From the NCBI GenBank assembly GCA_030149325.1, contig JASBRS010000059.1, positions 1-58,797 on the forward strand: 58,797 nucleotides of DNA, given 5' to 3'. The stretch is from Deinococci bacterium. Its GTDB lineage: Bacteria > Deinococcota > Deinococci > Deinococcales > Trueperaceae. Positions 1 through 15,374 of this stretch are shown here, piece by piece; position 1 is the first letter of the stretch; every line of letters starts with the position of its first letter. The notes under the pieces are model-generated. The model made no database searches. It was not told the origin of the DNA and saw nothing but the letters and a program-made list of their open reading frames with translations. The position numbers and the translations under genes were made by a program.

Positions 1-150
1 CCCCACGACAAGAGCCAGCACGTGTTCCTGTCCGGCACCAAGGTCCGAGAGATGCTCGCCAACGGCGAGCTGCCGCCGCCCGAGTTCAGCCGGCCCGAGG
101 TCGCGAAGATCCTCGTTCAGGCCCAGCGCAGGAACGGGAAGGCGGCATGA
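1..150 (+). CDS. sat: ATP sulfurylase, C-terminal end only
   Basis: The frame is open from the first base and ends at TGA 148-150, giving 49 residues. They contain the C-terminal signature of prokaryotic sulfate adenylyltransferase: SGTKVREML followed by [16 protein letters not shown]. The enzyme makes adenosine 5'-phosphosulfate (APS) from sulfate and ATP in the cytoplasm. The stop overlaps the cysC start (ATGA), so the two are translationally coupled and form the PAPS-producing pair. The N-terminal portion lies outside the window, so active-site motifs cannot be checked. Confidence 0.85.
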
Positions 151-770
151 GCGGCAACGGCAAGGCCACCACGGCGAAGGACAACAACCTCACCTGGCAC
201 GACCACAAGGTCACCAAGGAGGTTCGGGCAGCGCAGAAGAAGCAGAAGCCGTGCGTCATCTGGTTCACGGGTCTCTCCGGAAGCGGCAAGAGCACCCTCG
301 CCAACGCGCTCGAGGCCAAGCTGGTCGAGATGGGGCATCACACCTACCTCCTCGACGGCGACAACGTGCGGCACGGCCTCAACAAGGACCTGGGGTTTAG
401 CGACACCGATCGTATAGAGAACATCCGGCGAATCGGCGAAGCCGCCAAGCTGTTCGTCGACGCCGGCATCATCGTCATCACGGCGTTCATCAGCCCCTTC
501 AAGAGCGACCGTCAGATGGCGCGGAATCTCCTCGGCCAAGGCGAGTTCATCGAAGTCCACGTCGACGCCCCGCTTGCCGTCTGCGAACGACGCGACCCCA
601 AGGGCCTATACGCCAAAGCACGCGCCGGGCAGATCCGACAGTTTACTGGCATCGACAGCCCCTACGAGCAACCGGAATCCCCAGAACTTCGATTGAACAC
701 GGGAGAACTCGACGTCGCGTCTTGCACTGCACTCCTGGCTTCAGAACTCTCCAAGCGGGGCCTCATCTAG
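147..770 (+). CDS. cysC: Adenylylsulfate (APS) kinase
   Basis: This 207-residue protein phosphorylates APS to PAPS, the sulfate donor. The P-loop GLSGSGKS is at residues 42-49, and the APS-kinase motif [16 protein letters not shown] follows at about 69-84. ISPF at 115-118 is also typical. The length matches stand-alone CysC. The ATG overlaps the sat stop. The first 80 or so codons are strongly GC-ending, but from about base 390 A/T-ending codons (ttt, ata, cgt, gaa, caa, cta) become common, so the gene may be a recombination joint with the less GC-rich glycan cassette that follows. A sulfotransferase sits two genes downstream and would use its product. Confidence 0.95.
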
Positions 771-1501
771 GAGGTCCTGAGTGTGGCGAGTGCGTTGGGG
801 CAAGAACCGCCCATTCGGCGTTTGGATGGGACGTGTGCGTGCGCGCCAGGCGACAAGGAGCGGGCGTGTCGCTGGTCCACGTGGAACTGGCGCTGCCGCA
901 CTGGTACGGTCTCGGACTTCCGTCTTTCGGCGAGTGTTTGTGCCCCCAACCGTTCGATGCTGACCTCGCTAGCCTGGCATCCCGGATCGTCGGTTGGCCG
1001 TCCGGGTACTGCACCGTCCGCGCCTGGCATCGAGCATGCGCATAGAAGGCGGGTATGCCGTACGCAGGTGCGCCGCCGGGCGACGTCTGTTGCGAGCAGG
1101 CTGTCCTCGACGCTGCGTAGTGGCACTGGAGTAGCTGCTTCGGCCTACTTGCCGCACGAGTCGGCCAGTCTCCGCTGCTCTCGCTTGGAGCCGCTGTCGA
1201 TATCGCGCGGCGTGATTTTGGTTCATCATGGGAGTCTGTACGTGGGCGGCGGCGGAATCGCAAGCATTGCAGCGGCCCGCTTGGTGGCGGACGTGAGTGA
1301 TGGCGCTGTTGCCGTTGGTCACGGTTGGCCAATCGCGCTGGAGATCGCACCCGCCACCATGCGCGAGAGGCAGGAGGAATGGATGCCCACGGAGAGAAGT
1401 AGGTTGTGCCGCATGCCAAGCGCTCCGGATACCTCTCGCTTCAGATGGCCCGAGGAGCGGCTGCTACCACCGCCTTGTCCTTGGTTCGCTACGAACTGTC
1501 G
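771..1501 (+). other. Gene-free stretch at the start of the glycan cassette
   Basis: There are 731 bases between cysC and the flippase. The open frames here translate to Arg/Ser/Pro-rich sequence without recognisable motifs on either strand. Base use is less GC-biased than upstream of base 390. I see no clear hairpin, promoter or repeat. It could hold the cassette promoter, an RNA leader or a fully decayed gene. Confidence 0.5.
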
Positions 1502-2824
1502 ATGAATAGCGGTCGCGACTTCTGGAGCCTAGCAGGCGACTCTGCTGCAGCGTTCGCGCTCAAGGCTACGGGAGCAGCACTGGGCTTCGTCTTCAGCATC
1601 CTTGTCGCGCGCGAACTGGGAGTCGCACCTACCGGTACCTACTTCCTTGCGGTCACGGTCGCGACTGTAGTCTCCGTTGTGGGCCGCGTTGGCCTAGACC
1701 AAGTCGTTGTCCGCAAGATCGCAGCATCGGTTCGGCACGGAGATGATGCGCGAGTCCACGGGGTACACCGTACGGCGATACGTGTCGGGTTGCTTGGCTC
1801 GGGGATCGGCCTGGGCATCGTGGCCGCTATCGCCATACCGCTATACACTGCCCTTGACCCAGTCCTACGGCGTCCGCTCCTGATTGCGCTGTCATCGGTA
1901 ATGCCACTCTCGCTCTTGAACCTCAACGCCGAGGCCCTTCGTGGCCTGGGCCGCGTCGTTCGGGCGATGGCCCTCCAAGGAGCCCTGCTGCCACTCGGGA
2001 CGCTAGTCTTCTTCTCCGCCCTTCTGATGGTCGCTCCGGCGTCTGCTTCGTTGGCGGCAGTCGCCTTCTCCGCGTCGAGCCTGACCACGGCCGCAATCTC
2101 CTATGTGATGTGGCGTGGGGCAGCACCCCGGTGCGGTTCGGCGGAGGGAACCACGACCCTCGGCACGGAGTTGCTCGCGGCCAGCCGCCCGCTCTTCTGG
2201 GTCTCAGTCCTGAACATGGCCATGGTCTGGGGCCCAACCCTCCTGCTGGGGCTCCTGTCCGACAACCGAAGCCTCGGCGAGTTCGCCATTACAAATCGGA
2301 CCGCGATGCTCGTCGGATTCGTGCTCGTAGCCGTCAACGGGACCATCGCCCCGAGGATCGCAAGTCATCATTCGGCCAACGAGATCCAAGCACTGGAACG
2401 CCTCGTACGGCGGACGGCATCCGCTGTATTGCTGGTGGCTGGGCCCGCCGTCATCGTTGTGGCAGCCGCTCCAGGTTCTGTGCTCTCGCTGTTCGGTTCG
2501 GGGTTCGCCGGAGCCAGTTGGACCATGACAGTCCTTGCGCTCGGTCAGCTCGCGAACATCGCCACCGGATCGGCGGGGACGATTCTCATGATGACGGGGC
2601 ACGAGCGCGCGCTGCGATCCAACGTCTTGATCGCGACCTCGATTGGCCTCTTGCTCTGTGTTCTTCTGATTCCCCTATGGGGTAGTCTTGGGGCAGCCAT
2701 CGGAGCCGCGGTGGGCGTCGCAACGCTCAACGTTGCGTCCGCATTCGCGGTGAAGCGGCTCCTACGGATCTCAGCTCTTCCGTCGTACGCGCGAATTCTC
2801 GGGATCAGGAGCAGGACCCAGTGA
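1502..2824 (+). CDS. Polysaccharide flippase (Wzx/MATE-like)
   Basis: This is an integral membrane protein of about 440 residues with a dozen or so hydrophobic segments. It begins SGRDFWSLAGDSAAAFALKA and contains ILVARELGVAPTGTYFLAV, the usual opening of oligosaccharide-lipid flippases of the MOP superfamily. Such proteins move undecaprenyl-linked repeat units across the inner membrane. I chose ATG 1502 because the family motif starts directly after it. An upstream ATG at 1406 would add 32 non-homologous-looking residues. Its TGA overlaps the GTG of the sulfotransferase. Codon use is less GC-rich than in the flanking housekeeping genes. Confidence 0.8.
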   Translation: MNSGRDFWSLAGDSAAAFALKATGAALGFVFSILVARELGVAPTGTYFLAVTVATVVSVVGRVGLDQVVVRKIAASVRHGDDARVHGVHRTAIRVGLLGSGIGLGIVAAIAIPLYTALDPVLRRPLLIALSSVMPLSLLNLNAEALRGLGRVVRAMALQGALLPLGTLVFFSALLMVAPASASLAAVAFSASSLTTAAISYVMWRGAAPRCGSAEGTTTLGTELLAASRPLFWVSVLNMAMVWGPTLLLGLLSDNRSLGEFAITNRTAMLVGFVLVAVNGTIAPRIASHHSANEIQALERLVRRTASAVLLVAGPAVIVVAAAPGSVLSLFGSGFAGASWTMTVLALGQLANIATGSAGTILMMTGHERALRSNVLIATSIGLLLCVLLIPLWGSLGAAIGAAVGVATLNVASAFAVKRLLRISALPSYARILGIRSRTQ

Positions 2825-3714
2825 ACGGTACCGCTCCAACTCTCATCATAGGGATGCATCGGTCTGGCACGAGCCTCGTCGCGCGCGTTCTGGAGGATCT
2901 TGGGTTGTTCCTCGGCCGCCGACTCCAAGGCGACCACGAATCCACGTTCTTCTTGCGACTCAATGATTGGCTGTTGCACGAAGCCGGGGCGTCCTGGGAT
3001 CGGCCGGAAGGCATCGATGCCGTGCTCGAGGATCAGGCGGCGCGGGAAAGCATCGTCCGGTTCCTGCGCTCCTACATCAGGGGTCCGCGAAGCGTGGAGT
3101 ACCTGGGCTGGTCAAGCGTTCGGCTTGGACGCGGCTTCTGGCAGCCTCCAGCCAACTGGGGGTGGAAGGATCCAAGGACAACCTTCACGGTACCGCTCTG
3201 GGCTTCCGTCTTCCCGGGGATCCGACTCATCCACGTCGTGCGCAATGGCGTCGACGTAGCCGAATCCCTACTCGTTCGTGAGAAGCACCTGCGGGAACTT
3301 GCTGCAGGGCGGCTGCGAAGCAGGCGCCTTCTATACCAACTACGTGAGCGGCCTCCCCAATTGGTGAGCAGCGCGAGGTGCAGCGACATCGGGGAGGCCT
3401 TCGAGCTCTGGAAGCTCTACTACGATAGAGCCGAGTCGGAGATCGTGTCCGCGGAAGAACGCGGTATGTCGATACGCTATGAGGACTTCGCGGCCGAGCC
3501 GATACAGTGGGCGGCGCGGCTGGCAGCTCACTGTGGGCTAGATGTGAACGGAGCTGCGATCGAGAGGGCAACCCGCCGCATCGACACCTCCAGGTCCTTC
3601 GCGTACCTGAAGAACGAGGTCCTCCTGGGGCGCTCCCTTGGCGAATGGGCGAACGACCTGGCCGTGCGTGGCTACCCGAACACTGGTACCCGGACCGCCG
3701 CGCATCCGAGGTGA
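2821..3714 (+). CDS. PAPS-dependent sulfotransferase family protein
   Basis: A 297-residue protein. The N-terminus carries the 5'-phosphosulfate-binding loop IIGMHRSGTSLVARVL (residues 9-24), and residues near 134-145 (IRLIHVVRNGVDV) match the 3'-phosphate-binding strand and helix with the conserved Arg-Asn. Both motifs define the sulfotransferase_1/3 fold. It would transfer sulfate from PAPS to a sugar or lipid-linked glycan. It starts with GTG overlapping the flippase stop and overlaps the next gene, so it is embedded in the glycan operon. With cysC and sat just upstream, a sulfated surface polysaccharide is the simplest reading. The acceptor sugar cannot be told. Confidence 0.82.
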   Translation: MNGTAPTLIIGMHRSGTSLVARVLEDLGLFLGRRLQGDHESTFFLRLNDWLLHEAGASWDRPEGIDAVLEDQAARESIVRFLRSYIRGPRSVEYLGWSSVRLGRGFWQPPANWGWKDPRTTFTVPLWASVFPGIRLIHVVRNGVDVAESLLVREKHLRELAAGRLRSRRLLYQLRERPPQLVSSARCSDIGEAFELWKLYYDRAESEIVSAEERGMSIRYEDFAAEPIQWAARLAAHCGLDVNGAAIERATRRIDTSRSFAYLKNEVLLGRSLGEWANDLAVRGYPNTGTRTAAHPR

Positions 3715-4718
3715 TGTCCTTGGACACCGCCAAGGTTCGAACGCCGCCAGAGTCACGGGAGTCGACGCCCCTCGTTAGCGTTGTGGTGCTGAACTGGAAT
3801 GGACTCGAAGACACCCTCGAGTGCCTGGAGTCGCTGGAGAAGTGCACGTGGGACAATCTGGATATCATCGTCGTGGACAACGGCTCAACGGACGGCAGCG
3901 CAGCGGCGCTGGCGAAGACCTTTCCTGGCATCAGACTGATTCGGAGCCACTCGAATCGCGGGTACGCCGGGGGAAACAACCTCGGCCTTCAGGATGCTTT
4001 GGCCCGAGGCGCAGACTTCGTCTGGATTCTCAACAACGACACCGTAGTGAGACCCGACGCCGTGGGTTGGCTTGTTGCGCGCATGCTCGAAGACGTTCGA
4101 ATCGGTGTTTGTGGGTCCACGCTCCTTTACTTCGACCAACCTGACACCGTTCAGGCGTACGCAGGGGCAAGCTACAACCCATGGACGACGCGAACGCAGA
4201 TGATTGGCCAGGCAGTGGCCTTCGATCCCTTCCGTATCGATCACGTCGGTGTCGAGGAACGGCTTGACATGGTTAGCGGAGCCGCGATGTTCGTCCGTCG
4301 CGAGTTCGTGGAAGCCGTAGGACTGATGTGCGAGGACTACTTCCTATTTTTCGAAGAACTCGACTGGGTAGCACGTGCTGGGGGCCGTTTTCGCCTGGCC
4401 TGGGCCCCACGGAGTGTTGTGATGCATAAGGAGGGACGTGTTTCTGGCGCCCATCGCGTTGCGTCGCGAAGATCGCGCCAGGCGGACTACTACAGTATTC
4501 GAAGCCGCTTCCTCTACACGCGGCGCCACGTTCCGTGGGCGCTCCCGATATTGTGGTGGACACTGCTCGTAGTGCTCGCGAACCGCATCCGCCGCCGCCA
4601 AGTGGGCCGTATCCCGCTCCTTGTGAACGCCGCCCTGGATGGCGTGAGAGCCGCGACCGCAACGAACCAGCGGCCCGCAAGGAGTGACGACCGGTGGACT
4701 CGAGATGCATGGCGCTAG
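3714..4718 (+). CDS. Glycosyltransferase family 2 (rhamnosyltransferase-like)
   Basis: 334 residues from ATG 3714, which overlaps the previous stop (TGATG). The GT-A motifs are VSVVVLNWNG (21-30), VDNGSTDGS (54-62) for nucleotide-sugar binding, and LNNDT (106-110) as the metal-binding DXD-like site. The later EDYFLFFEELDW and HKEG motifs are typical of dTDP-rhamnose and related GT2 transferases. A hydrophobic segment near 275-295 probably tethers it to the membrane. The frame is open further upstream to 3507, but that part overlaps the sulfotransferase and lacks family similarity. Sugar specificity is not predictable. Confidence 0.87.
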   Translation: MSLDTAKVRTPPESRESTPLVSVVVLNWNGLEDTLECLESLEKCTWDNLDIIVVDNGSTDGSAAALAKTFPGIRLIRSHSNRGYAGGNNLGLQDALARGADFVWILNNDTVVRPDAVGWLVARMLEDVRIGVCGSTLLYFDQPDTVQAYAGASYNPWTTRTQMIGQAVAFDPFRIDHVGVEERLDMVSGAAMFVRREFVEAVGLMCEDYFLFFEELDWVARAGGRFRLAWAPRSVVMHKEGRVSGAHRVASRRSRQADYYSIRSRFLYTRRHVPWALPILWWTLLVVLANRIRRRQVGRIPLLVNAALDGVRAATATNQRPARSDDRWTRDAWR

Positions 4719-4730
4719 CTGTGTTCATGG

Positions 4731-6119
4731 ATGCCCGGGGCCGCGAATCTGTGGCCCGCCCTCAGCGATTTCGATCCATGGTGCTTCATGAGTCCTGATC
4801 TCCTGCTAAGGCTGGCCGTGTTCGTTTGCATGGCTCTCTGTAATGCGATCGTGTTCCTACGTGGGTATGGGGCCACCAACCCAGTAGCCATCCTGTCAGT
4901 TACGTTCTTCTTGCCGATGGCAATCGCAACTCTGCGCCTTTCGGGCCTCCAACATCCGTCCTGGACCCAAGACACCTATCTCCTGCTCTATGAGGCCGTT
5001 GCAGTTTGGCTGGTCCTGCCTACCCTCGTACTGTCGCTCGCCCCCCACGTCCGCCGGTCGAAGACCTCACGGCGATTCCTGACCCGTCGACTACAGAAGT
5101 TCTATGGGGCGGCCCTCGTCGCCGTTGCCCGCGGGTTCGCGTTCTGCATCGTCGCAGCGTACGTCGCGTCAAACCTGGTCCAGGCAGGAACACCGCTTCC
5201 ATTGGTCGAGCCCGACATCATCCAGAGCCTCCACTCCAACTGGCTACCGGGCCTTCGATCCATCGTGGTCCAGGTACCGCTTGGTGCGGTCCTGATGCTG
5301 CTTGCATTCAGCGTCAGTCGCTCACCCGCGGACTTCATCCTCTTGCTCGTCGTCGTCGCCCTACCGCTATCGCGTGGTGGGCGGATCGCGACGTTCGAGG
5401 CCATAGTGGCGTTGACGGTCATCCAGTACTCGATTCCCGTGGTCCGCATGAGTCGAAAGTGGCTGCCCGCGGTGTTGCTCGCGGCAGTACTAGCGGCGGG
5501 ACTGCTCACGTCCTTCGGCACGCAACGGATGAACCGGTTTGGTCGCTACGACGTCCGCTATCAGACAGTCATCCAATGGCACGGGCCCATTGACCGATTC
5601 GACATCCTGCCGGCCCTGTATGCCTACTTCCCCCTGAGCTTCGAGAACCTCGATCGCTTCGTCCGCGCTAGCCCGGCGTCACCCCTTCCCGGGACAGCCA
5701 GTCTCGCCTGGCTGTTCGTCGGAATCACCAAACTAAACGCGGTGTTCCCGGTGCTGGATGCGCCGTCCTATACCAGCCTCTATACTCCGGTTTCGACGGG
5801 TGCAACGGTCACAACTGCGCTCTCCGCCTTCTTTCTCGACTTCGGCCCCTACCTCGCATTCATTCCAATGCTCGTTACGATGCTCGCCTGGCTCTATGTC
5901 TATTGGCAAGCTGCCCGTAGCGTTCAGATGGCCATCTTCAACGCTGTCGTAGCATCTGCGTTCGCGCTCGCAGCGTTCCAACCGGTCATCGTATCCGGGG
6001 CCTTCGGCCAGGTCGCCATGGCGGCACTGCTCGCCCCTCCTCTTGCCCGATCCGTCGGGGCCATCGTGTCACGGAAGCGTGCAACCTCTAGCGAGGGGTC
6101 CGATACCCGTGAGACCTAG
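4731..6119 (+). CDS. Polytopic membrane protein, probable repeat-unit polymerase (Wzy-like)
   Basis: This protein of 443-462 residues (ATG 4731, or ATG 4788 before MSPDLLLRLAVFV) has ten or more hydrophobic segments. A short cytoplasmic or periplasmic loop, LPLSRGGRIA, resembles the SRG loop of oligosaccharide repeat-unit polymerases. A long loop around 270-340 (RYDVRYQTV onward) contains no transmembrane stretch. Wzy proteins diverge strongly, so the call rests on topology and on the position between glycosyltransferase genes. It overlaps the next gene by 11 bases. Confidence 0.62.
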   Translation: MPGAANLWPALSDFDPWCFMSPDLLLRLAVFVCMALCNAIVFLRGYGATNPVAILSVTFFLPMAIATLRLSGLQHPSWTQDTYLLLYEAVAVWLVLPTLVLSLAPHVRRSKTSRRFLTRRLQKFYGAALVAVARGFAFCIVAAYVASNLVQAGTPLPLVEPDIIQSLHSNWLPGLRSIVVQVPLGAVLMLLAFSVSRSPADFILLLVVVALPLSRGGRIATFEAIVALTVIQYSIPVVRMSRKWLPAVLLAAVLAAGLLTSFGTQRMNRFGRYDVRYQTVIQWHGPIDRFDILPALYAYFPLSFENLDRFVRASPASPLPGTASLAWLFVGITKLNAVFPVLDAPSYTSLYTPVSTGATVTTALSAFFLDFGPYLAFIPMLVTMLAWLYVYWQAARSVQMAIFNAVVASAFALAAFQPVIVSGAFGQVAMAALLAPPLARSVGAIVSRKRATSSEGSDTRET

Positions 6120-7218
6120 CGTGTTGTTTCAAATCCGAAGGGACCACCGACGCCGAGCCGGAGGCGACGTCGTGCAGCTCCATCGAACGATGGACGAACT
6201 CCAGCGGCTCGGGCTCGCTCATGCGCGCTTTGACGACACGCACAACTTGGATCTGGCCGGAGTAGACATCGTACACATCTTCAACCTCACACGGCTTCAT
6301 GACACCTATCTGCACGCTCGGAATGCGTGGAAGCAGGGCGTGCCCTACGTCCTCACACCCATCTGGCACTCGTTCCGAGATCTATCGGCCTTCTACAGGT
6401 CGTCCGGCGGCCTCGCAGGCGCCGTCGTCCGTACGCGGGGCATCGCAGGCTACTTGGCGCTCAAGGAAGTCATGTATGCGCTTGCTTCTGGTGGACCGCC
6501 CCCTCCAAGGGTCGTCCTGTCCTGGATGAGCATGGCCCGATGGGTGGCCCGCAATGCTGCGGCTGTCTTGCCCAATTCCTCGGCAGAACAACGAGCGATG
6601 GAACAGGATCTGTCTGTCGTCACCAGAAGAACGCATGTTGTCCCAAATGCGGCCGAGATCGCGCATGTCGACCGCCAGGGTCCTCGCCAGCGTATGGTGA
6701 TCTGCGCAGGTCGAATCGAACCGCTGAAGAACCAGATCGCGATCCTAGACGCGTTCCTCAGCGCTCCCGCGATGAGTGGCCACCAACTCGTCTTCGTGGG
6801 TCCCCCCAATCCGGGGCACCGGAGCTATTTGCGCAGGTTCGAAGGCCGCCTTGACGGGAATCGCACGAAGTGGCTCGGCGCCCAACCCAGAGAGAAGCTG
6901 TTGGACCTATTCTCGAGAGCTGACATTGCAGTCCTCGCATCGTTCTTCGAGACCACGGGATTGGCCGCTCTCGAGGCACTTGCGACAGGCGCCAGCGTCG
7001 TGGTCACGGACCGGGGGTACACCCGCGACTATTTCGGAGGACATGCGACGTACTGCGATCCGTATGACATCGCCTCCATTCGCCAAGCGATGACCTCGGC
7101 GAGCTCGACGCGACACCGTCCGCCGCAGGAGTTCTTCCGTCACCACTCATGGGAGACCGCCGCCCATCAGACCCGGGCAGCCTACGATGTTGTTCTTGGC
7201 GAAGCAGAGGGGCAGTGA
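6109..7218 (+). CDS. Glycosyltransferase family 4 (GT-B fold)
   Basis: I place the start at GTG 6109, preceded by GAGGGG at 6094-6099; this gives 369 residues. It opens with GGDVVQLHRTMDELQRLG, the usual N-terminal glycine-rich loop region of GT4. The C-terminal donor domain has CAGRIEPLKNQ and the E-x7-E motif, ETTGLAALE at residues 281-289, which binds the nucleotide sugar. It retains the sugar configuration during transfer. The frame extends further upstream but would overlap the polymerase by 77 bases. The stop is immediately followed by the next GTG start. Donor and acceptor unknown. Confidence 0.86.
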   Translation: MRPSVLFQIRRDHRRRAGGDVVQLHRTMDELQRLGLAHARFDDTHNLDLAGVDIVHIFNLTRLHDTYLHARNAWKQGVPYVLTPIWHSFRDLSAFYRSSGGLAGAVVRTRGIAGYLALKEVMYALASGGPPPPRVVLSWMSMARWVARNAAAVLPNSSAEQRAMEQDLSVVTRRTHVVPNAAEIAHVDRQGPRQRMVICAGRIEPLKNQIAILDAFLSAPAMSGHQLVFVGPPNPGHRSYLRRFEGRLDGNRTKWLGAQPREKLLDLFSRADIAVLASFFETTGLAALEALATGASVVVTDRGYTRDYFGGHATYCDPYDIASIRQAMTSASSTRHRPPQEFFRHHSWETAAHQTRAAYDVVLGEAEGQ

Positions 7219-8133
7219 GTGGCGCGCACACGGATCTTCATCCCCACGCTCAATGCCGGACCGGCCTTCGCTGATACGCTGAGGGCGGTTTCCCGTCAGT
7301 CGATGTCAGCTGAGGTCGTCGTCGCAGACTCCGGGTCTAGTGATCGCACGGTCGACATCGCGAGGCACTTCGGGGCCCGGATCATCATGGTCGCCCCCGA
7401 GGATTTCGACCATGGGGGTACCCGGAACCTCGCCTTGGTCGACTTCGCTGGCGATGTCTTGGTCTTCCTTTCGCAGGATGCCATTCCCGTAGGAGTTCAT
7501 TGGCTCGACTCGCTAATCGCTCCCATCCTGTCCGGTGCGGCGGCAGCTTCCTACAGCAGACAGGTGGCTCATGCTGGCGCGACACCGATCGAAGCGTTCG
7601 CGCGATCCTTCAACTACCCGGCGACGTCAATCGAACGCTCTTGGGAGAGTGTTGAGCGAGAAGGCGTCCGTGCCGTCTTCTTCTCCAACGTGTCATCCGC
7701 CGTCTCTGTCGCTGCATTCAAGGCGGTAGGCGGCTTCCCGGCACGTGCCATCATGAACGAGGACATGGCACTTGCGGCGAGACTCCTGCGAAGCGGTCAC
7801 ACGGTTCGGTATTCCGCCGAATCCGAGGTACACCACTCCCACGACTACTCGCTTGGGCGCCAGTTCTCTCGCAGCTTCGACATCGGCGTCTTCTTCTCAG
7901 ATCTTCCAGAGGGCTTTCCTCAGGTCGCACCGAGTTCTGAGGGCACGACATACGTTGTCAGACTCACTCGTCACCTTGTGAGCGAAGGTTACTGGGGCGC
8001 GCTTCCCCGTGCCCATATCGAAACGGGTCTGCGATTCCTCGGCTACAAGCTCGGCCGGGCCCACAGGGCCTTGCCAAGAAGGTTGAAGCTACGGATGACC
8101 ATGAACAAGCGGTACTGGGCACGGAGCTCCTGA
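7219..8133 (+). CDS. Glycosyltransferase family 2 (rhamnosyltransferase-like)
   Basis: 304 residues, GTG start directly abutting the previous TGA. Motifs in order: IFIPTLNAGPAF (6-17), VVADSGSSDRTVDIA (34-48), FDHGGTRNLAL (63-73) and FLSQDAIP (83-90). FDHGGTRN plus SQDA is a combination I associate with rhamnosyltransferases of the RfbF/WbbL type. NEDM further on supplies the catalytic-base region. It is a soluble or peripheral cytoplasmic enzyme that adds one sugar to the lipid-linked repeat unit. Five bases separate it from the ligase-like gene. Confidence 0.86.
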   Translation: MARTRIFIPTLNAGPAFADTLRAVSRQSMSAEVVVADSGSSDRTVDIARHFGARIIMVAPEDFDHGGTRNLALVDFAGDVLVFLSQDAIPVGVHWLDSLIAPILSGAAAASYSRQVAHAGATPIEAFARSFNYPATSIERSWESVEREGVRAVFFSNVSSAVSVAAFKAVGGFPARAIMNEDMALAARLLRSGHTVRYSAESEVHHSHDYSLGRQFSRSFDIGVFFSDLPEGFPQVAPSSEGTTYVVRLTRHLVSEGYWGALPRAHIETGLRFLGYKLGRAHRALPRRLKLRMTMNKRYWARSS

Positions 8134-10207: not shown

Positions 10208-13200
10208 GTGCCCCGTCTGCCGGTCACCCGTCTCATCGCGTTTCTACTTGGTTTTGCGGTTGCCTTCCTACCTTCTTTTGGCCCGTTCGCCGCGATACTG
10301 TTCATCCTCACCGCCCGCCTAAGACTGCGCAGGTCGGATCTTCCGTGGTTACTTGGGGCGATCGTCTCGGCCGTGGCCACAGGCGATCATGGGGGCCTCG
10401 CGAGTGCGGCCTTCGGTGCCCTGCAGATTCTAGGACCGTGGGCCGTCTTCCGTGCGTTCATGGAAGTCCGACATCTCCACTCCCGGAGGCTCAAGAGTGC
10501 CGAGGTGCTGACTGGCCTCTTCGTCGGCTTCCTCGCTGTCATCGTCCTCGGCTTCAGCAGTGTCCGTTGGAATCTGGCCTACCCCTCGTTCACACAGGTG
10601 GTCACCTGGGGCGGGAATCCCGCGCTCTTCGCTCACATGACCCTCGTGGTTGGCAGCGTGATTGCCCTGCTCGCGAACGATGGCTGGCTTCCTGTCGCAA
10701 CGCTCTCGCTCGCTACGGTCGGAACACTCGCGTCTGGAACCCTAGAAGCCGCCATCGGACTCGTGATGGTCATTGCGTACCTAGCGATACGATCCTTGAC
10801 GCGACGTAGGTGGCGAACGGCAATCCCACTTGGATTCCTGGGCCTGCTCGTCGGAGCACTGGTGCTTCTCGGTCCGAAGATAGGTCTCGGCACGATTGGT
10901 TTCGTCGTCGATCCTGCGCCCCACACAGCGGGCATCAACTTGGTTCGAGGTTCGGAACTGCCGACCGGCGACTGGTGGGATCATCGGAACGTAGCTGTTG
11001 AGACCTCCCATACCGAACTGGCTGGACGCCGGTTGACGGCATATCGGATTACCAAACGTGGACAGGCTGGCTGGCTTCGTCTTCAACAGGTTATCCAGCT
11101 CCAGGCTGATACCACATACACCGCAAGTGCTTGGATCCTCGACGACGGGCCCTCGCAGGCAGGCATCCAGGGCTGGGGGAAGATCGGGGCCAACCATGTG
11201 TTCGCTCTCACCATGGCGCTCACCGACCACCGCGTTCAGGCGGAAGTCGTCGGCCCAGGCGCGGTCATACAGCATGGCATCTTGGCTCGTGAGGGCCACT
11301 GGAAGCGCGTCTACGCAACCTTCCGTTACGGGGGCGATCGTCCTCTCAATTGGTACGTCGGGCTAGCTCCCGACGCCCGCTCAGTACCAGATACCACAGC
11401 CACCTTCGCAGGATTCCAGGTCGAACCGGGAGGTCCGACGGCCTATCAGCCCGGGCCCGCTGATCGTGGGCTGAGTTTGGCTGCGGGTCGCCTCACGATG
11501 TGGCGCGTGGCGTGGGAAGGGATCAGGCAAGACCCCTGGTTCGGTCATGGCCCAAAGACGTTCGCCGAGTTCTATCAACACTCGGATCTGAGAGAATCGG
11601 CCCTCGCCGGCTTGGTGCCAGCTCACGCTCACGACTTGATCCTCGAGGTGCTCTTCGAACGCGGAATCGTAGGGCTGGCCGGTTTCTTGCTCCTCCTGAC
11701 GGGGTTGGCCTGGGCGGCCGTGCGCAACCGAGACGTCGGCTATCTCGTCGTTCTCGGCGCCATCTTGTTGGCAAACGTCTTCGACGTCAGCTTCTACTTC
11801 GGAGGCGTGCTCTACCCTCTCGCGGCCGCGGCCGGTTGGCGGTCTCGAGAGCTAGCTGCCGGAAAACCTGCCGCCGACTCGATGTCTCGACAGGTTGCCG
11901 TCCGCCTGGTGCTCGCGGGAACGGACTTCGGACTCGCCTACCTTGCATTGGCAGCATCAGCTGGGATCTTGGGGTGGGTTGGCCCCAGCGTACCCGGCTC
12001 CGTTGCACTTCCTTCCGATCTTGGTGGCATCCTCGTCTTCCTTTGGCCCGCGATGAGCTGGCGCGAGGCTCTTTACCCCGGCTACGGCATGACGGAACCA
12101 GAGGAGCTCCGGCGTCAGATCTTGGCCGCCACCTATTCTGGCGCGTTCTACCTTGTGGGGGCGATCGCCTTCACAGGTGATAGCTCCACACAGCTCCCAA
12201 TCGCCGTACTCACGACGATCTTCGCCTGTGTCTTGCTCCCTCTCGGGCGCGCGACCGCGAAGCGCGTGTTGAGGGCGCTTGGGCTCTGGGGCCGCGCAGT
12301 CGTAATTCTGGGCTCCGGCTTGGTGGCATCGACCATCGCAAGGACCTTGACCCACCGTTCCCTCGACGGCCTCAATCCCATCGCGGTATTCGCCGACGAC
12401 GTCCACGGGACCTCTGCCGAAATGGTGGGGGGAGTTCCCCTCATCGGCCCCATTTCTGCAGCGAACACGTTCGCCCGCCGCGAGGGCGTCCACCACGCCA
12501 TCGTGGCCATGGATCCTGTCACGTCGTCGAGCCGCCTGACCAAGCTCGATCCCAAGGACAACCCCTTCACCATCGTCCAGTACGTCCCCGATCTCCCGGG
12601 ACTCCCGGTCCTGGGCGTCCGCGCGGCCTCGCTCGACAACCTCCTCGCCCTCCAGGTCCGCAACGAGCTGGCCTCCCCCTTCAACCGCGCGGTCAAGCGC
12701 GCCCTCGATCTGACGGGCGTCGTGGTCGGCGGCCTCCTCATCAGCCCGCTCCTCCTCGCCCTGGCCCTGGCCGTCGTGCTCGACTCGCGCGGGCCCGCCC
12801 TCTTCGCCCACACCCGCGTCGGACGCAACGGCCGCAGGGTCCGCGTCTGGAAGTTCCGCACCATGGTGGCGGACGCGGCGACGCAGCTCGAGCGCCACCT
12901 GGCCGCCGACCCGGCGCTGCGCGCCGAGTGGGAGGCCACCCACAAGCTCAAGGACGACCCGCGGGTCACGCGGGTCGGGCGCTTCCTCAGGCGTTTCAGC
13001 CTCGACGAGCTGCCGCAGTTGTGGAACGTATTGATCGGCGAGATGAGCCTGGTCGGACCCCGTCCGATCGTCGACGACGAGGTCGCGAAGTACCGCGACG
13101 CCTTCGACCTCTACACCATGGTCCGCCCCGGCATGACCGGCTACTGGCAGATCTCCGGCCGGTCCGACACCGACTACGACCAGCGGGTCGAGCTGGACAG

Positions 13201-13291
13201 CTTCTACGTCCGCAACTGGTCGGTGTGGCTCGACGTCATCGTGCTGATCAAGACGGTCTCGGCCGTCCTCAAGCGCGACGGCGCCTACTGA
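10208..13291 (+). CDS. Fusion: O-antigen ligase/polymerase-like module plus priming phosphoglycosyltransferase (WbaP/WcaJ type)
   Basis: 1027 residues in one uninterrupted frame from GTG 10208 (a CATACT hexamer lies 6 bases upstream). Residues 1-230 are membrane segments. About 235-420 is an extracytoplasmic domain resembling a carbohydrate-binding module (TYTASAWI, HWKRVYATFRY, FAGFQVEPG). About 420-545 holds the ligase motif AHAHDLILEVLFERGIVGL. From about 555 a second set of membrane helices begins, then a nucleotide-binding-like region (VVILGSGLVASTIA). The catalytic domain from about 825 to 1027 has KFRTM, SLDELPQLWN, SLVGPRP and PGMTGYWQISGR, which are conserved in polyprenyl-phosphate sugar-1-phosphate transferases. 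Codon use turns GC-rich at about base 12,400-12,600, inside the transferase half. Confidence 0.85.
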   Translation: MPRLPVTRLIAFLLGFAVAFLPSFGPFAAILFILTARLRLRRSDLPWLLGAIVSAVATGDHGGLASAAFGALQILGPWAVFRAFMEVRHLHSRRLKSAEVLTGLFVGFLAVIVLGFSSVRWNLAYPSFTQVVTWGGNPALFAHMTLVVGSVIALLANDGWLPVATLSLATVGTLASGTLEAAIGLVMVIAYLAIRSLTRRRWRTAIPLGFLGLLVGALVLLGPKIGLGTIGFVVDPAPHTAGINLVRGSELPTGDWWDHRNVAVETSHTELAGRRLTAYRITKRGQAGWLRLQQVIQLQADTTYTASAWILDDGPSQAGIQGWGKIGANHVFALTMALTDHRVQAEVVGPGAVIQHGILAREGHWKRVYATFRYGGDRPLNWYVGLAPDARSVPDTTATFAGFQVEPGGPTAYQPGPADRGLSLAAGRLTMWRVAWEGIRQDPWFGHGPKTFAEFYQHSDLRESALAGLVPAHAHDLILEVLFERGIVGLAGFLLLLTGLAWAAVRNRDVGYLVVLGAILLANVFDVSFYFGGVLYPLAAAAGWRSRELAAGKPAADSMSRQVAVRLVLAGTDFGLAYLALAASAGILGWVGPSVPGSVALPSDLGGILVFLWPAMSWREALYPGYGMTEPEELRRQILAATYSGAFYLVGAIAFTGDSSTQLPIAVLTTIFACVLLPLGRATAKRVLRALGLWGRAVVILGSGLVASTIARTLTHRSLDGLNPIAVFADDVHGTSAEMVGGVPLIGPISAANTFARREGVHHAIVAMDPVTSSSRLTKLDPKDNPFTIVQYVPDLPGLPVLGVRAASLDNLLALQVRNELASPFNRAVKRALDLTGVVVGGLLISPLLLALALAVVLDSRGPALFAHTRVGRNGRRVRVWKFRTMVADAATQLERHLAADPALRAEWEATHKLKDDPRVTRVGRFLRRFSLDELPQLWNVLIGEMSLVGPRPIVDDEVAKYRDAFDLYTMVRPGMTGYWQISGRSDTDYDQRVELDSFYVRNWSVWLDVIVLIKTVSAVLKRDGAY

Positions 13292-13345
13292 GCAACGCCC
13301 GCAGCGGCGTGAGATGCTTGGACGTGCCGGGCTGGAGCGCTGCAG

Positions 13346-13361
13346 TAGACTGACCCCGGTG
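13346..13361 (+). promoter_or_regulatory. -10 element placing a leaderless start at uppS
   Basis: TAGACT at 13346-13351 ends 7 bases before GTG 13359, so transcription would begin at or next to the start codon. No good -35 sits at 17 bp. The same hexamer occurs ahead of manC (14247-14252) and, on the minus strand, ahead of the EtfD-like gene (33422-33427). Confidence 0.4.
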
Positions 13362-14198
13362 AGCACCCAGGCCCAGGCCGCCCCGGGCACGCGACAGCGT
13401 CGTGCCCTAGGACTCGTGAGCAACCTCGCGCGGCCGCTGTACTGGCTCTACGAGCGGCGCCTGCTGCGTGTGGTCAAGGGCTCGCACCTGCTCCCCCGCC
13501 ACATCGGCATCATCATGGACGGCAACCGCCGCTTCGCCCAGGCCATCGGCATGGACCTGGAGGCCGGCCACGACTACGGCGCCACCAAGGCCCGCGAGGT
13601 GCTCGACTGGTGCCTGGAGCTGGGGATCCGGCACGTGACGCTGTGGGGGTTCAGCACCGACAACCGCGGCCGCGCGCCGCAGGAGGTGGCGCACCTCCAC
13701 CGCATCTTCGGGCAGCAGGCGCGCGACCTCCTCACCGACGAGCGCATCCACGCCAACCGCGTGCGGGTGCGCGTCATCGGCGACATCGAGGACTTCCCCG
13801 CCGAGGCCAAGGAGGCGTTGCGCGCCATGGAGGCCGCCACCGCCGACTACGACGGCATGCAGGTCAACGTTGCGCTGGGCTACGGCGGCCGCGAGGAGAT
13901 CGTGGCGGCCGTGCGCAGCCTGCTCGCCGAGAAAGCGGCGGCGGGATCCGACCTGACGGCCGCCGCGAAGGGGCTCGATGCCGACGCCATCGGCCGGCAC
14001 CTCTACACCGCCGGCCTGCCCGATCCCGACTTCGTCATCCGCACCAGCGGCGAGGTGCGGCTCTCGGGCTTCCTGCTGTGGCAGAGCGCCTACAGCGAGT
14101 TCTACTTCTGCGACGCCTTCTGGCCCGAGTTCCGCAAGCTCGACTTCCTGCGCGCGGTCCGCAGCTTCCAGGCACGCGAGCGGCGCTTCGGTCGCTGA
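13359..14198 (+). CDS. uppS: Undecaprenyl diphosphate synthase (isoprenyl transferase)
   Basis: A 279-residue cis-prenyltransferase that condenses isopentenyl diphosphate onto farnesyl diphosphate to make the C55 lipid carrier. HIGIIMDGNRRFA carries the catalytic Asp (about D54). STDNRGR, then GYGGREEI and RTSGEVRLSGFLLWQ near the C-terminus, are the other conserved blocks. I chose GTG 13359 because of the TAGACT at the leaderless distance; ATG 13314 would add 15 residues with no similarity. The wording of the C-terminus (FYFCDAFWPEF, FQARERRFG) reads like Deinococcus homologues. It supplies the carrier used by the glycan locus and by peptidoglycan synthesis. Confidence 0.93.
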   Translation: MSTQAQAAPGTRQRRALGLVSNLARPLYWLYERRLLRVVKGSHLLPRHIGIIMDGNRRFAQAIGMDLEAGHDYGATKAREVLDWCLELGIRHVTLWGFSTDNRGRAPQEVAHLHRIFGQQARDLLTDERIHANRVRVRVIGDIEDFPAEAKEALRAMEAATADYDGMQVNVALGYGGREEIVAAVRSLLAEKAAAGSDLTAAAKGLDADAIGRHLYTAGLPDPDFVIRTSGEVRLSGFLLWQSAYSEFYFCDAFWPEFRKLDFLRAVRSFQARERRFGR

Positions 14199-14297: not shown

Positions 14298-15374
14298 TTG
14301 AGACCGTTCGTCGCCGTCATCATGGCCGGGGGCAAGGGGCAACGCTTCTGGCCGCTGTCCACTCCCGAGCGCCCCAAGCAGTTCCTCGACCTCAGCCACT
14401 CGGGCCAGACGCTCATCCAGGCCACCTACGATCGCGTCCTGCACCTCACCGGCGACCCCGAGAGGGTGTTCGTGTCGACCGGGCGACGCTACGTGGATCT
14501 GGTGCGCGAGCAGCTCCCCGGCATCCCCACCGTCAACCTGCTCATCGAGCCCGAGGGGCGCGACTCGGCCCCGGCCGTGGCGCTCGCGGCCCTCACGGTG
14601 CACGCCCGCTACGGCGACGTCATCATGGGGCTGTTCTCGTCCGATCACGAGATCGGCGACAGCGACGCCTTCGAGGCCACCCTCCGGGGCGCCATCGAGC
14701 TCGCCGACGCGCGCGAGGGCCTGGTGACCATCGGCATCCAGCCCACGCGCCCGGCCACCGGCTACGGCTACATCGAGAAGGGGGCCGAGGCCGACGGGGG
14801 TTTCGAGGTGGCGCGCTTCGTGGAGAAGCCCAACCGCCGCACCGCCGAGTCGTACCTGAGCTCGGGGCGCTACGTGTGGAACGCCGGCATCTTCGTGTGG
14901 CCCACCGGGGCCATCCTCGATGAGCTCGACCGGCACGTCCCCGAGCTCATGACGCCGCTGCGCGACGCCTTCCACCACGGCGAGATCGGCAGGGTCTTCC
15001 CGACGCTCACCAAGATCTCCATCGACTTCGCGGTCATGGAGCGGACCGACCGCGCCTTCGTGGTGCCGGGCAGCTTCGACTGGGACGACGTCGGCGACTG
15101 GGTGGCGCTCGAACGCCTGTTGCGCCAGCACGCCGGCGAGCACGGCGTCGAGGCGAGCGACACCAACACCGTGGTCGGCCGTCACGTCGGCATGGACACC
15201 TCGGGGAACATCATCTACACCGAGGATCCCGACGACGTGATCGTCACGCTCGGGGTCGAGGGGCTGGTCGTGGTGAAGCGCGGCAACACCGTCCTGCTGG
15301 TCCGCAAGGACCGCGTCCAGGACATCAAGACGCTGCTCCAGGACGAGCGTCTGCACGAGCTCATCGACGGCTGA
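14298..15374 (+). CDS. manC: Mannose-1-phosphate guanylyltransferase
   Basis: 358 residues starting at TTG 14298, with a strong Shine-Dalgarno (GAAGGGGGAAGG, 14284-14295) just upstream. The nucleotidyltransferase signature VIMAGGKGQRFWPLS (8-21), then PKQFL, YGYIEKG, FVEKPNR (about 173-179) and FDWDDVGDW, match GDP-mannose pyrophosphorylase. It makes GDP-mannose from mannose-1-phosphate and GTP. Its length fits a single-function enzyme without the fused isomerase domain. It probably feeds the glycan locus but lies in GC-rich housekeeping-style DNA. It converges with the aldehyde dehydrogenase gene only 19 bases downstream. Confidence 0.92.
   Translation: MRPFVAVIMAGGKGQRFWPLSTPERPKQFLDLSHSGQTLIQATYDRVLHLTGDPERVFVSTGRRYVDLVREQLPGIPTVNLLIEPEGRDSAPAVALAALTVHARYGDVIMGLFSSDHEIGDSDAFEATLRGAIELADAREGLVTIGIQPTRPATGYGYIEKGAEADGGFEVARFVEKPNRRTAESYLSSGRYVWNAGIFVWPTGAILDELDRHVPELMTPLRDAFHHGEIGRVFPTLTKISIDFAVMERTDRAFVVPGSFDWDDVGDWVALERLLRQHAGEHGVEASDTNTVVGRHVGMDTSGNIIYTEDPDDVIVTLGVEGLVVVKRGNTVLLVRKDRVQDIKTLLQDERLHELIDG

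Follow-up and report, generated by a model that had tools for sequence, protein, structure and literature searches.

One gene in the window, the 58,797-nt stretch of Trueperaceae DNA analysed here, encodes a Wzy_C/WaaL-like membrane module and a WbaP-type phosphoglycosyltransferase (PGT) within a single polypeptide (Table 1). Judged from the sequence, the ligase-type module and the PGT module are both complete; the fusion itself is genuine and of old origin. On balance, we favour the reading that it specifies a two-sided inner-membrane enzyme, which would initiate a glycan in the cytoplasm and transfer the oligosaccharide outside, more probably by ligation than by polymerisation.

Table 1. Features of the fusion gene and its surroundings (positions refer to the window; residues to the fusion protein unless stated otherwise)
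Feature	Position	Strand	Remarks
APS kinase	147-770		
Wzx-type flippase	1406..2824	+	
Sulfotransferase	2821-3714		
GT2 of the repeat-unit cassette	3507-4718	+	
Candidate repeat-unit polymerase, 462 aa, 11 TM	4731..6119	+	TIGR04370, weak, below cut-off
GT4 of the repeat-unit cassette	6043-7218	+	
GT2 of the repeat-unit cassette	7219-8133	+	
Second Wzy_C protein, 630 aa	8139..10031	+	large non-matching region before Wzy_C; without PGT
Fusion gene, GTG start, 1027 codons plus stop	10208..13291	+	Wzy_C/WaaL-like module, CBM-like insert, WbaP-type large monotopic PGT
WaaL-like (Wzy_C) membrane module, residues 1-548	10208..11851	+	about 12 TM (hydropathy, AlphaFold2 helices); insert in the long periplasmic loop
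L179-E180	10742..10747	+	L179 aligned with WaaL Arg191
Inserted CBM-like beta-sandwich, residues 243-412	10934..11443	+	11 strands (262-407); NF048003; CBM and phage fiber folds
R428	11489..11491	+	WaaL Arg265 equivalent (Und-PP phosphate binding)
H473-A-H475	11624..11632	+	H475, WaaL His313 equivalent (proposed acceptor activation; PMC10920833)
Cytoplasmic linker between the modules, residues 549-560	11852..11887	+	
Four-TM bundle of the WbaP module, residues 561-690	11888..12277	+	
Rossmann-like domain, residues 691-815	12278..12652	+	CoA_binding_3, the 'DUF' of large PGTs; 8t53 WbaP and Rex-like folds
PGT catalytic domain, residues 826-1027	12683..13288	+	
Asp933-Glu934 dyad	13004-13009	+	
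Undecaprenyl diphosphate synthase (UppS)	13314..14198	+	directly downstream of the fusion
Mannose-1-phosphate guanylyltransferase (ManC-like)	14298..15374	+	

The initial annotation had described one frame of 1027 codons that joins both modules, and this description holds: the frame is open throughout, and the domain profiles follow each other in the order Wzy_C, CoA_binding_3 and Bac_transf (Pfam, hmmscan). Wzy_C was matched at residues 425-494 (profile positions 81-149; 52.6 bits, cut-off 31.7), CoA_binding_3 at residues 647-770 with a score slightly below its cut-off (24.8 versus 25 bits), and Bac_transf (PF02397) at residues 830-1022 with 214 bits. Of the NCBIfam profiles, TIGR03022 (WbaP) covers residues 608-1027 (459.5 bits, cut-off 403) and the spike-fiber/CBM-like NF048003 residues 242-409 (44.2 bits, cut-off 36).

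Using a full-length profile (A2) on 111 Deinococcota genomes, the fusion was observed across one frame in 20 of the 39 Trueperaceae genomes, corresponding to 14 of the 17 genera, so that the domain order sought in related genomes was indeed recovered. Fourteen of these genomes carry full-length single-frame fusions, and six more carry frames that cross the junction and either end at contig borders or lack the insert. The other 72 Deinococcota genomes searched with the profile contain no fusion. Due to the draft state of the window genome (3.04 Mb in 102 contigs), an error in sequencing or assembly that joined two separate genes has to be considered. The same join is, however, found in 20 genomes from independent assemblies, among them the closed chromosome of the type strain Truepera radiovictrix RQ-24T (G013; 3,260,398 bp; PMC3072082), and we regard the probability of such an error as negligible. 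The stop that had been suspected to be hidden near position 11,880 does not exist, since the reading continues through the junction in all aligned relatives, and an error of this kind was ruled out as an explanation. Furthermore, two pairs of close relatives gave dN/dS values of 0.05-0.17 in every segment as well as at the junction, and a more distant pair gave 0.14-0.46. All segments are under purifying selection, and so is the junction.

The possibility that the homologues are always encoded as two genes is likewise contradicted by the single-frame join in the Trueperaceae, and two genes were observed only outside this family. There, wbaP is directly followed by a separate Wzy_C gene in the three loci examined (L062, L063, and L064), with a 4-bp overlap in two of them, and the gene order is the reverse of the domain order in the fusion. 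In a tree of the WbaP part, the solo proteins of the outgroup all form a single clade (94/95), and the distribution is explained if the fusion was gained once and lost once. Nested among the fusions is a solo WbaP of 480 aa (L061 8916-10358) of the Trueperaceae genome G016, which may have arisen by loss of the Wzy_C module or by replacement. In other phyla, the fusion was not found by a contig scan with two peptide patterns, which is a weak test, nor with profile A1 (E <= 1e-18) in phylum sets of 195, 7, and 40 genomes, where an empty result is uninformative; a similarly weak test of plasmids gave none either. Due to the weakness of the tests in other phyla, a restriction to the Trueperaceae is unproven.

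The two modules are connected by a linker of approximately 12-20 residues among the fusions, which ends in the conserved motif VRxxLxxxD. In the window gene, an ATG at 11882 (Met559) lies within the linker and is the sole local Met codon. Thus the gene might yield two ordinary enzymes, by separate translation or by cleavage, in which case the fusion would only ensure their equal amounts. As Met559 is not conserved among the relatives, they are unlikely to share an internal ATG start, and an internal start giving a separate WbaP was discarded. The conserved end motif and the shortness of the linker also speak against a two-enzyme product, which we consider very improbable.

The WbaP-type module is complete (residues 561-1027), with four-TM bundle, Rossmann-like domain and PGT catalytic domain, and it matches the WbaP structures 9s7s and 8t53. 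Foldseek returned WbaP 8t53 as the top match of the C-terminal part (E 1e-14), and PglC was matched as well. The Asp933-Glu934 dyad is intact in the alignment of all fusions with a complete PGT. Hydropathy and AlphaFold2 models fit a topology of approximately 12 TM with loop and insert outside, a cytoplasmic linker, a four-helix bundle, and the Rossmann-like and catalytic domains; the sides were deduced from how charges are distributed and from comparison with WaaL and WbaP. The domain content, the domain order and the two-sided topology proposed at the outset are thus backed by profiles, relatives, structure models and conserved PGT catalytic residues.

That a carbohydrate-binding-like domain is inserted in the first module is confirmed by the position of the Wzy_C match, which is found only after the insert, and by the naturally insert-less fusion of G012 (L066 8923-11406), in which Wzy_C is unbroken at residues 156-289. 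The insert is well predicted in the AlphaFold2 models and its fold matches phage tail-fiber and several CBM structures (Foldseek); the CBM_4_9 profile scored 17.1 bits, below its cut-off of 25.9. In a sister family, the Wzy_C protein adjoining wbaP (L062 7117-8745) carries an NF048003 domain before, not inside, Wzy_C.

The N-terminal module shows the hallmarks of WaaL, i.e., a Wzy_C domain, about 12 TM, a long periplasmic loop, and equivalents of Arg265 and His313. In a profile search, its only relevant solved relatives were WaaL 7TPG (E 1.4e-6) and the oligosaccharyltransferase 9rmk (E 1.6e-6). By Foldseek, the model of the module matches 7TPG with a TM-score of 0.58 by target length (E 0.006). 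The full-length model is of moderate quality (mean pLDDT 68), and that of the first module is better (78). H473 and H475 occur in every aligned fusion, R428 in all except L021, which has a gap at this position, and E180 is invariant across the aligned fusions. An exception is given by the equivalent of WaaL Arg191, which is absent from the window protein (Leu179) and present as Arg in 10 of the 17 fusions aligned.

Leu179, together with the long branch of the Wzy_C module of the window protein (1.31 versus 0.21 for its PGT domain), would agree with a product in which catalysis is confined to the PGT, the Wzy_C module being degenerate and serving in substrate binding or docking that places initiation beside flippase and polymerase. 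This is difficult to reconcile with R428, H473, H475, and E180 being invariant or nearly so among relatives of only 31-44% identity, nor is it expected from purifying selection in all segments, and we therefore judge it improbable. A catalytically competent outer module is not necessarily a ligase, as inverting polymerases have the fold and the arginines in common with ligases, and polymerases of clan GT-C1 carry Asp or Glu at the position of the WaaL His (PMC10920833). This position is His in the fusion, whereas short Wzy_C proteins encoded in these loci carry His, Glu or neither; those of L060 and L058 have His as well. Consequently, the catalytic His was rejected as decisive proof of a ligase. 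Due to the variable Arg191 equivalent and the difference between related polymerases and ligases at the His position, the module is not assigned to WaaL/GT121 in the strict sense; it is a member of the Wzy_C family whose mode of action is probably that of WaaL.

The genomic context bears on the choice between ligation and polymerisation, which the initial annotation had left as alternatives. The cassette upstream of the fusion encodes a flippase, glycosyltransferases and a candidate polymerase without Pfam match, whose TIGR04370 match extends over its length with 18 bits (cut-off 40) and which has a TIGR04370-like counterpart in G017 (L038 2935-4323). The presence of APS kinase and sulfotransferase genes suggests a sulfated glycan. 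A counterpart of the second Wzy_C protein adjoins the fusion or lies near it in several relatives, and short insert-less Wzy_C proteins are encoded in the fusion loci L057, L058, L059, L060, and L040. In these five loci, including that of T. radiovictrix (L057 2352-13068), three Wzy_C-family proteins per locus were counted, which is unusually many. The three types are a short variable one located among the glycosyltransferase genes, a longer one with an extra region upstream, and the PGT fusion. A single Wzz-type protein is encoded in the window genome, on a different contig, and a search of this genome for Poly_export gave no match. In at least five genomes (window, L058, L039, L042, and L043), the UppS gene is the next one 3' of the fusion; in others it lies in the vicinity.

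The fused module is assigned to ligation rather than to polymerisation mainly on account of the separate polymerase candidates in its loci, an indirect argument: the fused module is the conserved partner, and the polymerase-type protein appears as an extra, variable one. The original alternative is thereby narrowed towards ligation without being settled. Several observations count against a ligase. The second Wzy_C protein could take this role instead, the Arg191 equivalent is not conserved in the family, ligases and polymerases of these loci cannot be told apart by the His, and the candidate polymerase stays below its family cut-off. Accordingly, the Wzy_C module might represent the repeat-unit polymerase, with the second Wzy_C protein as ligase and another role for the candidate polymerase. 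The sister families, which have a single Wzy_C protein beside wbaP in a locus that may also encode Wzx, are in agreement with such an initiator fused to a polymerase, as is the similarity of inverting polymerases and ligases mentioned above. On the other hand, many fusion loci encode an extra, variable and insert-less polymerase-type membrane protein while the fused module is conserved, and its relatives of known structure comprise a ligase and an oligosaccharyltransferase. We consider the polymerase assignment rather unlikely and retain ligation as the preferred function of the fused module.

Assuming a ligase-type outer module, the following course is the most likely, based on the conserved frame, the complete modules, the PGT dyad, R428 and H475, purifying selection and the linkage to UppS. 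The cytoplasmic WbaP-type module with its Asp933-Glu934 dyad would move a hexose-1-phosphate onto undecaprenyl phosphate and thereby start the glycan, which would be extended by the separate glycosyltransferases of the cassette and flipped by Wzx. The flipped unit may be lengthened by a separate polymerase, for which the TIGR04370-like protein is a candidate. With R428 and H475 in its periplasmic loop, the N-terminal module would then cleave a sugar-diphosphate-undecaprenol bond of the kind formed at initiation and hand the glycan to the final acceptor, perhaps a protein or the cell wall, while the CBM-like domain may hold the glycan or the acceptor. Und-PP would be freed beside the initiating module, and UppS would feed the same carrier pool. 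That one protein carries out both the first and the last step, as the initial annotation had proposed, is plausible as a hypothesis. Deinococcota are commonly regarded as being devoid of lipid A-core, so that the acceptor used by WaaL is not to be expected here, a point against the ligase reading. More tentatively, one might speculate that a single enzyme that makes the sugar-diphosphate-undecaprenol bond inside and later breaks it outside controls loading and unloading of the carrier and can limit the amount of carrier held by the glycan pathway, both reactions perhaps being kinetically coupled.

The window fusion gene shows an upward step in third-position GC, with values of 0.65-0.75 at residues 1-690, 0.85 for the Rossmann domain and 0.95-0.98 for the PGT domain. 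Left of this step lies a foreign-looking cassette with 62% GC, right of it the backbone with 71.5%. Thus the cassette boundary lies within the fusion gene, for which cassette exchange by homologous recombination inside the gene would be the simplest reading; the two-sided proposal does not depend on it. A step of this kind is absent from the fusion genes of G013, G003, and G021. The relatives form two PGT subtypes, 'PI..E' and 'PY..E', which are cleanly split in the PGT tree, and this split is not forced by the Wzy_C tree; the distances of the two modules correlate at 0.74-0.92. The outer module is therefore apparently compatible with two or more types of initiator, and this speaks mildly against a strict matching of the first sugar.

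Cells have to match the start of a glycan to its end with a scarce undecaprenyl carrier, and a conserved fusion of initiator and ligase-type module suggests that the first and last steps can work as a unit. If the proposal is true, the fusion is the first candidate for a ligase with its own initiator in the Deinococcota, a phylum with little-studied envelope glycans. Its occurrence in the cultivable and non-pathogenic T. radiovictrix, for which a closed genome is available, makes the proposal testable.

Compared to known systems, the C-terminal module resembles WbaP and other large monotopic PGTs (TIGR03022; 8t53, 9s7s) in the four TM, the Rossmann-like domain and the Asp-Glu dyad, but it is preceded by a complete Wzy_C module of 548 residues in the same chain. 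WaaL (CAZy GT121; 7TPG) and O-oligosaccharyltransferases of the PglL/TfpM type share Wzy_C, the periplasmic loop, the equivalents of Arg265 and His313 and about 12 TM with the fusion, which differs from WaaL by the CBM-like loop insert, the unconserved Arg191 equivalent and the fused PGT. The wbaP-wzy pairs of the other Deinococcota encode both enzymes side by side, but as two genes with wbaP first. Bi-PGTs, in which an extra functional domain is fused to a monoPGT, are a known class (PMC10942596). Another Bi-PGT, a GT2-type and PGT fusion of 707 residues with domains read by eye, is encoded in the Trueperaceae genome G025 (L067 2263-4386). A Bi-PGT with a Wzy_C/WaaL-like membrane module was not described in the literature searched, a scope that did not extend to the main survey of the monoPGT family. 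Within that literature, the initial statement that a characterised example is lacking stands for the exact pair of PGT and Wzy_C. It does not stand for the principle, which is represented by the experimentally studied WadA of Brucella, a chain of cytoplasmic glycosyltransferase and periplasmic O-antigen ligase (PMC9938171) whose cytoplasmic enzyme was assigned to GT25 (PMC10920833). Like the fusion, WadA combines a ligase-type module with a cytoplasmic sugar transferase. Its GT25 domain, however, is N-terminal, adds the last core sugar and thus prepares the acceptor, whereas the transferase of the fusion is an initiating PF02397 PGT, located C-terminally, that would prepare the donor.
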